DNA of 38,724 nt from positions 1-38,724 of the forward strand of contig JAFGFM010000237.1 of assembly GCA_016931115.1 (NCBI GenBank). Direction: 5' to 3'. This document shows, piece after piece, positions 34,640 through 38,724 of this stretch. The first letter of the stretch is position 1. Every line of letters starts with the position of its first letter. A program made the translations under genes and the position numbers. The notes beneath the pieces are model-generated. The model saw only the letters and a list, made by a program, of their open reading frames with translations, was not told the origin of the DNA and made no database searches. This DNA comes from Deltaproteobacteria bacterium (lineage in GTDB: Bacteria > Desulfobacterota > DSM-4660 > Desulfatiglandales > HGW-15).

Positions 34640-35842
34640 TCATAATATTTCCCCTAGTCTTGAAAATCTTATTGAAGCAATCCTGCCAAAAACATTCCAA
34701 ACAGGAATCTTCGTGTCCCATGAAAAATATATAAAAACAGGCCTTCCAAATATCTGATCACGCCTTACCATCCCAAAATACCGGCTGTCGGATGAGTTGT
34801 CCCTGTTATCACCAAGTACGAAGTATTCACCATTCGGGATTGTAACAGGACCATAATTCCTGTTAGCCCAGTTGTAATTGCTGTTTCCCAGATATAATAT
34901 CTGATAACTCGATTTTCCAAGGGTTTCCCGGTATTCATCCGCTTCTCCTCCCTGTTCAAGCGTGACCTTTTTAATAAAATTTTAGTTTCAACCCCCACAG
35001 ATTTAAATATTATAAGATCGCCTCTTTCAGGATTATGGTTATTGTAATAACCAAGATCATAAACGAAACTATCCCCGACAAGCAGGGTCGGCATTATGCT
35101 CCAGGTGGGTATCGTACTTGTCTGGAATACATTACGTTTTGTTACTGTCTTATCAACACTGAAAGCCACCAGATTTATAACCAGAATTACTAATAAATAG
35201 ATGTGCCACCGGTTATAGCCCTTTAAACTGTAATCTCCTGATATTTTCTTTGCAGAACGTATGGCATCGAAGATAATAAACAGCCGTAGAGCAATGGAAA
35301 TTAAAAAAACAGCCAGGAAAAAAGCTAGAATAATAATCCAGTAAAAAGGCCGGGCCGGAGTTTTTAATAAAAAATGCATCAGGCTTATAAGAAATCCGCC
35401 CCAGACTGACAGGATAACATAGAGTAATAAACCTTTTGTCTCCTGACCATTATAGACTTGCCCCAGACCAGGCACTAAAAAACTTAATAACCCGGCCAGC
35501 CACCATCTTCTGCGTTTCTTGACGGACAGCCTTTTCTTATTTATAAAATTCAGGCAATGATTCCGGGCAATTGAATAAATCCATGTATTAAAGGAATATA
35601 AGGGATTATATTTATCGAGATTCCGGTACACCTTGAGCATTACATCCTGGAAAAGGTCTTCGGCATTATCCTTAACCATATTACGGATAAAGTAAACGAT
35701 TCACTGCTGATATTGGTTCCAGATCAGATTGAAAAGTTCCCTTCTGCAACCCTCGCCTCTTCTGCACTGAATAAATATCTGCCAGTTCTTGATCGGTATT
35801 TTCAAAAAAGAGTCCTTGTCCCTGTTCTATTAAATAATCACA
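34640..35842 (-). pseudogene. ECF sigma factor - signal peptidase I chimeric pseudogene
   Basis: Reading down from 35842, a sigma-70 region 2 is recognisable (TDQELADIY, CRRGEGCRRELFNLIWNQYQQ, then VYFIRNMVKDNAEDLFQDV...SFNTWIYSIARNH). It is broken by a one-base shift near 35770 and a TGA at 35701-35703. Instead of region 4 it runs in frame at NKKRLSVKKRRRWW into a signal peptidase I: GLLSFLVPGLGQVYNGQ, several membrane helices, IPTWSIMPTLLVGD, HNPERGDLIIFK. A further one-base shift near 34977-34983 separates the Ser region from FIKKV, YGPVTIPNGEYFVLGDNRDNSSDSRYFGMV and the stop at 34640. The IP[ST]GSM active-site motif has changed to IPTWSIM. It is almost certainly not functional as read. 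Confidence 0.8.
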
Positions 35843-36110
35843 TTAAATGGATTTGGATAATTCCTTATGCCTGTATATACAGATAATATATAAATTGGTT
35901 CATAAAAAGATAATATTATTTAATAAACAGTATCGAGGATCGAGAGAAAGGATTCATATCTCCGATTAGCTCTTCTTATTTTTATATCACACTTACTTTT
36001 TATTTTCATGATCTATTCGGAGATTTGACCCATCTAAAGGGCGAAATATTTTTCGCCCCTGCAAATTCCCGTCGAACAGGAGGGCCTTCGTACAGAGCGT
36101 GCACAGATGT
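35843..36110. other. Intergenic stretch between minus-strand genes
   Basis: About 270 bases of A+T-rich sequence upstream of the pseudogene contain only the terminator at 36039-36058. No intact start codon for the sigma-factor part is visible here, so its 5' end may also be lost. Confidence 0.4.
36039..36058 (-). terminator. Terminator of the FGE-like lipoprotein gene
   Basis: GGGCGAAA and TTTCGCCC form an 8-bp stem with a 4-base loop, about 50 bases after the stop at 36111. On the minus strand it is followed by a short T-run (CCCTTTAG). Confidence 0.65.
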
Positions 36111-37823
36111 CTAGTCGCAACCCTCCGCCGGACACGGTGCCGGTTCATAGGTCGATTCGCCTCCGCCTATGTAGAAATAAATCGAAGCATTTTCACCCTT
36201 TGGAATCTCTTCATCGCAGTGGCTGCCGCAGCTTACTGGGAAAACGTCGCTGTTGGACTTTTTCTGGAACAACCTGAAGTCAGCGCGCTCATACGCCTGG
36301 TATGAGTTGTGAAAGAAAAATCCATCCGGGGATAATGCATACAGGTAATCGGTTGTATATCCGCCTGGGTGCGTTATTCGCAGGAATGTGTTGTTGACTG
36401 TAAACCAGCTGCCGTTGGCGAGCATGGTCATTTGCCCCTGATTAACAGTGAACCGGAATTCGTCAGCGTCTATGTCCTTTCTGTAGTGGTGTAAACCGCC
36501 GACGCTGCTGTTGTCCTGGAACCAGCACTGGCCCGGCCCGTCGATCAGCCTCTGATCCTGTTCCTTAGCCCACTCCGGGATGTTCTCCATGTCGACCATC
36601 TTATAGTCATCCCCCGCCTCCGCGGCTAATTCCGCACCGCTCTTTAAGCCGGATATGACAGGTTTGCTTCCGCTCGCCGACTCCTTCTCTATCCTCCCAA
36701 TGTAGCCGCTGCTGAAACCAGCGTCGGAAATAAGCGTCCCTTGCGTTTTATCGAGCCAGATATAGGCAAATTTTGTGATAGAACCTGAACTTGGAACAAA
36801 CACGAAGGCGATGTTATTTGAAGTGAACCACTGACCGCTGGTGCCATTTAATACTGCAGTACCGTCCTCCCAGACCCTGAGATCAAAATTGCCAATCTTT
36901 ATAGCCCCCTCCTTCCAATGCGCATCGCTGCCTGTGATCCACCGCAGGTCACGGTAAGAATTCTCAGGCTCTTCAGGCGGGACCGGGGGGCAGAGTTCAC
37001 ACGGCGGAACATAGTCCGGCGGGAACTCCATCTCATTTGAGACGACCAGGCGCAACTGGGGGCCTATGCCGTCGATTGAACGAATGAGGCGCCCTGTTAT
37101 GTTGTCGGCACTTCCCATAATATCGCGCCGCGTTTTCTGAGTGTGTTTTCCGCTATTGGGCCCTACAGGATCAGTACCACCCGTATGCGAAAGTTCCCAG
37201 GAGTTATAGGCCCATTCTTCTCCGCTCATTGAGTTTTCACCTATGTCTTCCAGACTGCTCGAGTAATTTTTTGCCGCATACTCAAACTCAGCCTCGGTCA
37301 TCATACGATATGCCCTGCCTGTCTGATGGCTTAACTCGCAGGCGAATCTCATGGCGTCATACCAGGTCATGCTGACCATGCCACCCAAACTCTCGCCCAT
37401 AACGGCCTCCCATAAAGCTGCCGTCACCTGGTTTTTTGCAATATGATAGCTGCTGACTGTCACGCCCGGCACAGGGTTTGTATCAGGCGGGCAGCTATTA
37501 CCTTCGCACCCTAAAGTAAATGTGCCGCCAGGTATGTATATCATATCAAAGGAGACCCCGCCGACCTCTTCTGTGTAGTCCTCAGCAGGCGGTGGCTGGT
37601 TATCCAGAACAGGGGTACCGGAATTGCAAGAATTATCGAAATCACTGTCGGAATCGGCATCACCATCGGTATCATTATCGGTATCACCATCTGTGTCGCT
37701 GTCCACATTGCTTTGCCCGTTGGGGTCTTCTATATCGGAAATCTGCCCGCCACTGTCGCCGGAACATCCACATATGGCAATCGCTAACATTCCGGCAACC
37801 AAAAACAGTAATATTTTCTTCAT
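36111..37823 (-). CDS. Secreted FGE/sulfatase-modifying-factor-like lipoprotein
   Basis: This 570-residue exported protein has a signal peptide ending in the lipobox ICGC (C20). An acidic Asp/Ser/Thr linker (about 41-64, SDTDGDTDNDTDGD type) follows, then a formylglycine-generating-enzyme-like domain (about 88-280). FGE blocks are MIYIPGGTFTLGC, SSYHIAKNQVTAALWEAVMG, MVSMTWYDAMRFACELS and YRMMTEAEFEYAA. Its last block (GIGPQLRLV) is close to the family's closing GFR. The rest is two copies of a beta-rich module around GQWFTSNN (about 335) and GSWFTVNN (about 480). AGGAGG precedes the ATG. It is probably surface-anchored; enzymatic FGE activity is unproven, as most bacterial relatives are binding or structural proteins. 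Confidence 0.82.
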   Translation of the reverse strand: MKKILLFLVAGMLAIAICGCSGDSGGQISDIEDPNGQSNVDSDTDGDTDNDTDGDADSDSDFDNSCNSGTPVLDNQPPPAEDYTEEVGGVSFDMIYIPGGTFTLGCEGNSCPPDTNPVPGVTVSSYHIAKNQVTAALWEAVMGESLGGMVSMTWYDAMRFACELSHQTGRAYRMMTEAEFEYAAKNYSSSLEDIGENSMSGEEWAYNSWELSHTGGTDPVGPNSGKHTQKTRRDIMGSADNITGRLIRSIDGIGPQLRLVVSNEMEFPPDYVPPCELCPPVPPEEPENSYRDLRWITGSDAHWKEGAIKIGNFDLRVWEDGTAVLNGTSGQWFTSNNIAFVFVPSSGSITKFAYIWLDKTQGTLISDAGFSSGYIGRIEKESASGSKPVISGLKSGAELAAEAGDDYKMVDMENIPEWAKEQDQRLIDGPGQCWFQDNSSVGGLHHYRKDIDADEFRFTVNQGQMTMLANGSWFTVNNTFLRITHPGGYTTDYLYALSPDGFFFHNSYQAYERADFRLFQKKSNSDVFPVSCGSHCDEEIPKGENASIYFYIGGGESTYEPAPCPAEGCD

Positions 37824-38083: not shown

Positions 38084-38724
38084 ATGAGAATTTCTGCTCT
38101 GATATTGCTAATAATTGCGGCAGCCGGTTTCTCTTTTGCGCAGGACAGCGGAGGCAACCAAGAAAAAAAGCCCTATAACGGGGCAGCAATCATGCTTTTA
38201 CTCGAAGAGCAACCAGAAGAAAACACCGATGCTGCATGCGCTGATGGCATTGATAATGACACAGATGGTTACACTGATTGTAATGACTTTGATTGCAATG
38301 GAACTACAATATGCAATCTGGGTCCTGAAAACACTGAAGCATATTGTTCAGATGGGCTGGACAATGATCAGGACAGTTATATTGACTGTCATGATTTCGA
38401 CTGTGACGGGACCTCTGTTTGCATGGAAAATACCGAGGCTGCCTGTTCGGATGGGATTGATAATGACGTGGACGGGTTAACGGACTGTAATGACTCTGAT
38501 TGTGAAGCTACTTCCATTTGCGGACCGAAACCCGAAAATACCAATGAAGCATGTTCAGATGGGCTGGATAACGACCAGGACGGTCACACGGATTGTGCGG
38601 ATTGGGATTGTGATGCTACTGATATTTGCCCTAAACCTGAAAATACCAATAAAGCATGTTCGGATGGGCTGGACAATGATCAGGACAGTTATATTGACTG
38701 TCATGATTTCGACTGTGACGGGAC
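38084..38724 (+). CDS. Secreted Cys/Asp-rich tandem-repeat protein (cut by window edge)
   Basis: An open frame starts at ATG 38084 (GAGGAGGA seven bases upstream) and runs off the right edge, with 213 codons visible. It has a signal peptide (MRISALILLIIAAAGFSFA, cleaved before QDSGG). A short linker leads into at least five tandem units starting at 38237, 38345, 38444, 38552 and 38657 (33-36 residues apart). Each unit reads like CSDGxDNDxDGxxDCxDxDC followed by xxTxIC and a PENTxxA spacer. Four regularly spaced cysteines and clustered aspartates per unit suggest disulfide-bonded, calcium-binding modules of the DNDGDG type known from myxobacterial surface proteins. The C-terminus and any anchor lie outside the window. 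Confidence 0.8.
   Translation, partial: MRISALILLIIAAAGFSFAQDSGGNQEKKPYNGAAIMLLLEEQPEENTDAACADGIDNDTDGYTDCNDFDCNGTTICNLGPENTEAYCSDGLDNDQDSYIDCHDFDCDGTSVCMENTEAACSDGIDNDVDGLTDCNDSDCEATSICGPKPENTNEACSDGLDNDQDGHTDCADWDCDATDICPKPENTNKACSDGLDNDQDSYIDCHDFDCDG

Follow-up and report, generated by a model that had tools for sequence, protein, structure and literature searches.

The window analysed here is an entire contig (C69, positions 1 to 38724; 38,724 nucleotides) of a draft assembly that comprises 240 contigs and is 98.53% complete and 2.79% contaminated. At its right-hand end lies a gene for a tandem-repeat protein, the frame of which is preceded directly 5' by an AGGAGG ribosome-binding site and carries a putative N-terminal Sec-type signal peptide, both recognized by eye. 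The features on which the analysis turns are as follows.

36111-37823, minus strand: FGE-sulfatase-like gene
38084-38724, plus strand: repeat-protein open reading frame of 213 codons, running off the window end without a stop
38219-38314, plus strand: unit 1 (NF033662, 41.5 bits)
38327-38422, plus strand: unit 2 (43.3 bits), putative source of the 62-base tract
38351-38412, plus strand: first copy of the 62-base segment, equal to 38663-38724
38351-38374, plus strand: 24-base tract, proposed crossover site, also present at 38663-38686 (unit 5) and at C121:94-117
38351-38662, plus strand: proposed duplicated three-unit block of 312 bp, suggested by the 62/62 and 91/93 matches at register 312
38426-38521, plus strand: unit 3 (46.6 bits)
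38534-38629, plus strand: unit 4 (40.5 bits)
38639-38724, plus strand: unit 5 (39.6 bits over 27 of 32 positions), a mosaic truncated by the contig end
38663-38724, plus strand: second copy of the 62-base segment, stopping at the contig end

The repeat-protein frame belongs to the NCBIfam family NF033662 (acid_disulf_rpt, acidic double-disulfide repeat), which it matches in five stretches with an E-value of 2.1e-49 and a score of 164.9 bits, against a cut-off of 41. A further piece of the same kind of array is found at the start of a second contig, C121, which begins within a partial unit, continues with a full unit and reaches a stop directly 3' of it; this piece scores 56.5 bits over two stretches. 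Four cysteines at relative positions 0, +14, +19 and +25, together with an acidic core, are present in all five complete units (the first four of the window and the last one, on C121); unit 5 ends before its fourth cysteine, and the counts leave out the partial unit with which C121 begins. No Pfam family exceeded its cut-off in the window frame and none was listed for the C121 piece, and neither an anchor nor a further domain was found in the sequenced parts. As far as it is sequenced, the protein is little but units, and its relatives include, at one extreme, a protein of 34 units (L021) and, at the other, long-frame proteins with single units; as repeats, nothing sets the window units apart from these relatives. 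Foreign origin was considered on the basis of base composition and set aside, the G+C content of the frame (45.1%) being nothing striking next to that of the window (42.5%).

A profile of 24 units, built from the five complete units of our own array, 14 of the 34 units of L021 and 5 units from an eight-unit relative (L022), gave 21 matches at E ≤ 10 against PDB sequences. The top 13 were all teneurins, led by the C-rich domain of human Teneurin-4 (7PLP, 5.2e-9); no other solved structures were significant relatives of the repeat. The window protein alone also had 7PLP as the best of its 3 matches (3.2e-4), and a 34-residue stretch of teneurin in turn scores 44.3 bits on NF033662, above the family cut-off. 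A match driven by composition was rejected as an explanation for the window protein, since its reversed sequence gave 2 matches at E ≤ 10, neither of them a teneurin. On the other hand, L021 also matched EF-hand proteins, which rank behind its best teneurin match (9.4e-6) and begin with troponin C at E 0.0016; this indicates that composition does contribute for long arrays.

The teneurin C-rich domain is described as binding three Ca2+ ions through E835, D840, D843, N844, D845, D847, D851, D854 and D856 along with backbone and water ligands, and as carrying the disulfides C838-C857, C852-C863 and C858-C869 (PMC9058538). At the spacing of 7PLP, the positions of D840, D843, N844, D845, D847, D851, D854 and D856 are occupied by D or N in 6/6 of our own units, and the cysteines equivalent to C838, C852, C857 and C863 fall at identical spacing to those of teneurin, with Cys at +14 and +19 in 6/6 units and at +25 in 5/5 complete units. 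Among 52 pattern matches in five sequences (our two pieces and three relatives, with one out-of-register match in L022 kept), seven of these eight ligand positions hold the teneurin residue in 49-52 of the matches and the position of D856 does so in 35; Cys occurs at +25 in 44 of the 52. The position equivalent to E835 reads D, E, E, N, N and N across the six units (D/E in 3/6, N in 3/6), and the three asparagines count against a Ca2+-binding reading. Unlike teneurin, our units have no Cys at +20 and thus no equivalent of C858 and no third disulfide, so we do not file them as teneurin C-rich domains, but only as units that would work like one. As far as it is sequenced, the protein likewise is a tandem array without other teneurin domains by Pfam: no family exceeded its cut-off in the window frame and none was listed for the C121 piece, the TTR, NHL and YD-shell domains included.

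An AlphaFold2 model (mean pLDDT 77.6, with the blocks of the repeats at 78-92; pTM 0.44) returned only teneurins in a Foldseek search of the PDB (all 5 matches at E ≤ 10, weak, with a best E-value of 0.76), and alignment of the model with teneurin by VIA-align gave a Z of 4.5 and an rmsd of 3.6 over 42 aligned positions. The motif correspondence suggests that the fold of each unit is probably built around Ca2+ and held by two disulfides, in the manner of the teneurin C-rich domain. Export and Ca2+ binding are predicted, and the product is most likely a secreted Ca2+-binding string of beads, a prediction made from sequence. We infer that it most likely serves as a Ca2+-dependent spacer, matrix or adhesive protein, the length of which would vary with unit number. 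A likeness between the teneurin motif and bacterial and algal metal-binding motifs has already been published (PMC6425310, citing Tucker 2012). The C-rich Ca2+ sites I and II are said to be coordinated much as in thrombospondin type 3 repeats (PMC9058538); that repeat was not among the Pfam families listed at E ≤ 10 for our protein.

A sequence-only reading of the window had called attention to two identical 62-base segments lying 312 bases apart within this gene, and the identity holds in full (38351-38412 against 38663-38724, 62/62 bases at an offset of 312). The left edge of the match is sharp, with no further equal base (G at 38662, A at 38350). As that reading also stated, the match runs to the window end, and since the contig itself ends there, 62 is a lower bound in the rightward direction. 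At any other offset within the frame the longest exact repeat is 17 bases (offsets 20-619), and the best ungapped identity over 62 bases elsewhere is 53/62 (offsets 60-559). Over 89 nt, identity to unit 2 is 63% for unit 1, 65% for unit 3, 70% for unit 4 and 89% for unit 5.

The same pair stands out at the level of codons. Comparison of six units (the five in the window and the last on C121) yields 15 pairs, of which the pair 2/5 agrees at all 60 core bases and all 20 third positions; the remaining 14 agree at 39-52 of 60 core bases and at 6-14 of 20 third positions, in line with the earlier remark that the other units differ at many codons. Given the same residues, the chance of 20 equal codons is about 10^-6.5 under the codon usage of 12 window frames. 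Over a common 78-nt frame, the third-position identity of units 2 and 5 is 0.808, compared with maxima of 0.654 in L021 (among the listed separations of 1-15) and 0.731 in L022. Third positions and the codon calculation together rule out protein constraint as the cause of the 62-base identity; codon choice being equal too, recent copying explains it.

The window cannot be extended directly, as the contig ends at 38724, and the array was found again at the start of C121. No contig bridging the two was found by DNA, protein or family searches of the genome, and beyond C69 and C121 the family search returned just two places, with E-values of 1.06 and 7.98. The suspicion, raised from the sequence, that short-read assembly had broken at this point is thus borne out, one contig ending in an array and the other starting in one. 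Contig ends in this assembly also fall in repeats more often than contig interiors do: for 60 contigs, drawn by number, 8 of 95 ends recur exactly over 20 bases at another place in the sequence compared (63 of the 240 contigs, about 0.91 Mb), against 436 of 121,443 interior 20-mers. With C69, C121 and C124, the other three contigs of this set, added, 10 of 101 ends match, two of these being the right end of C69 and the left end of C121. The duplicated repeat probably accounts for the assembly break here. We were unable to derive an assembler word length from end overlaps, as the exact end matches varied from 20 to 86 bases and did not settle on one length. In addition, C121 and another contig, C142, abut when compared with a genome of the same genus (G001), with one base unaccounted for, which means that contigs have no fixed overlap and that the gap between C69 and C121 cannot be deduced from overlap rules. 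Nor does G001 offer synteny support for joining the two contigs: there the FGE-like gene is on one contig and the lhr gene on another, and no copy of the repeat was detected.

Comparison of the two pieces of array shows unit 5 to be a mosaic, the left part of which resembles the last unit on C121 and the right part unit 2 (62/62). Positions 1-93 of C121 match 38570-38662 at 91/93 bases, at register 312, and the match continues to C121:117 (115/117 against 38570-38686) before the sequences diverge. Unit 2 and the last unit have 30 exact bases in common (38345-38374 and C121:88-117), 24 of which are also present in unit 5, and the switch in unit 5 from last-unit to unit 2 sequence falls in this 24-base tract common to all three.

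These observations lend themselves to a model in which unit 2 and the last unit would have undergone unequal crossing-over (or slippage) within their common tract of 24-30 bp, an event that would have copied in frame the 312 bp between the two seams, equal to three units. An array ordered 1-2-3-4-last would thereby become 1-2-3-4-(last/2 mosaic)-3'-4'-last. An expansion product, the putative outcome here, would keep unit 2 upstream, which matches the observed order. A single 312-bp event accounts for both the 62/62 and the 91/93 matches. If C69 and C121 are parts of one gene, as these matches suggest, the model predicts a gap of 157 bases between them and a total of 8 units in a frame of 969 nt (322 residues); the computed joined frame stays open, whereas direct abutment of the two contigs breaks it. 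The claim of a recent unit duplication stands as to recent copying, but a three-unit block with a mosaic junction is more economical than the copying of a single unit. Against this account, the junction and the 157 missing bases are absent from the assembly, and two differences in C121:1-93, compared with none in the 62-base tract, make a single very recent event not perfectly uniform. Taken jointly, a secreted array of NF033662 Ca2+ units of about 35 residues that underwent one recent 312-bp duplication of three units is the account we favour, with somewhat better than even confidence. In L021, units four apart are the most alike (mean 0.668, against 0.605-0.643 at other separations up to 15), which suggests that block duplication may be an old habit of such arrays.

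It is possible, if rather unlikely, that the two contigs represent two alleles, a five-unit array in the strain that gave C121 and a longer array in the strain that gave C69, so that the contigs overlap rather than follow one another. The five-unit array would then consist of units 1-4 plus the last (218 residues), a frame that holds at 657 nt, and the two differences between C121:1-93 and 38570-38662 are as expected of allelic copies. The bin also contains second copies of both neighbouring genes. The lhr-like helicase gene on C121 (1006-5004) has an 88% identical copy on C124 (874-4770), and the FGE-sulfatase-like gene of the window has a 90% identical copy at C133:28696-30180; these could be paralogues or possibly the sign of a mixed bin, and with them C121 could derive from another strain or species. 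However, neither another array start nor another flank on the FGE side bearing a repeat gene was found in the bin, where the repeat occurs convincingly only at the end of C69 and the start of C121. Even with two alleles the duplication would still be real.

We regard it as less probable again that the second copy does not exist, the assembler having passed from last-unit to unit 2 sequence by way of their short common tract. Such a jump would explain why the match extends exactly to the contig end, a common tract of 24-30 bases is available for it, and the excess of 20-base copies at contig ends (8/95) is in keeping with it. It would nevertheless have required acceptance of a 24-base overlap, and the contig ends gave no assembler word length. 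Moreover, two bases depart from C121 (T at 38623 and G at 38662), and unit 2 does not have this G either, so that neither source by itself accounts for the sequence leading into the second copy. Gene conversion, in which a tract of at least 62 bases was copied from unit 2 to unit 5 or the reverse at constant unit number, had also been proposed from the sequence and would suit an identity that covers less than a full unit and breaks off abruptly on the left, but it is less economical alone, leaving the 91/93 match at register 312 to a second event, and we consider it improbable.

The proposed process has precedent in the Periscope Proteins (SasG, Rib and Sgo_0707), in which repeat number is described as changing by intragenic recombination (PMC8201768). 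As far as that account goes, they and our gene are alike in having tandem units with a near-identical stretch that allows intragenic recombination and length change. Unlike them, our protein has near-identity in one unit pair only, and neither an N-terminal binding domain nor a C-terminal wall anchor was found in it by Pfam or in the C121 frame. With a single genome available per species, no difference in array length between strains was seen, so that the variation which the sequence-only reading thought likely is a conjecture. The family is thus already catalogued and the recombination process known, and the array described here is an added instance with a clear but unfinished recombination record. 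The exact intragenic repeat both records recent recombination and conceals it, the assembly breaking exactly there, and unit counts from draft assemblies of such genes are lower bounds. By analogy with the solved animal domain, NF033662 gains a concrete prediction of up to three Ca2+ ions and two disulfides per unit. More speculatively, and with considerable doubt, a secreted bead protein resembling the teneurin C-rich domain might be tuned in length by in-frame, multi-unit recombination at short tracts, with lengths differing within the population; if so, the array would parallel the stalks of Periscope Proteins, but with disulfides and calcium as its basis.

At E ≤ 0.001 the NF033662 family was found in 8 of 61 genomes (our own and 60 relatives), exceeding the cut-off in 4, and in a sample of the phylum, our own genome included, in 18 of 198, exceeding it in 5. 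The lone genome of the same genus examined (G001) had no match at E ≤ 0.001, nor had any of 14 control genomes, four of which matched at E ≤ 10 with none over the cut-off. Three Myxococcota relatives were found by query, and their genomes carry 72, 94 and 30 matches, in two cases meaning at least that many. In the open-access literature we found no paper on the acidic double-disulfide repeat family, and none linking teneurin cysteine-rich, Myxococcota and calcium-binding. Four relatives of the same order (L006, L007, L008 and L010) have just one unit, in which two cysteines stand side by side and two more follow (DCC...C..C), a form nearer to the six-Cys teneurin domain than the tandem units described here. 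Elsewhere in the phylum, a 211-residue frame (L111, 4972-5607) contains several double-disulfide units and adjoins a cytochrome-like gene.

Several other elements were observed around the array. The FGE-like gene has a third-position G+C content of 58.5%, compared with 40-46% in six other window genes. The single frame at 34765-35679 on the minus strand matches both Sigma70_r2 and Peptidase_S26, an unusual combination that may reflect a frameshift or a chimera. On C121, positions 493-908 of the minus strand encode a ParE-type toxin (PF05016, E 5.4e-10), and upstream of it lies a 62-residue frame without a Pfam match, perhaps the antitoxin. An element of about 100 bp is present in the same orientation in the window (35940-36040) and on C121 (433-523), the two copies being 92% identical; each carries an inverted repeat of 19 nt, with complementarity of 84% and 89%, and there are three more partial copies in the genome. 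The element is possibly a REP-like or small mobile repeat.
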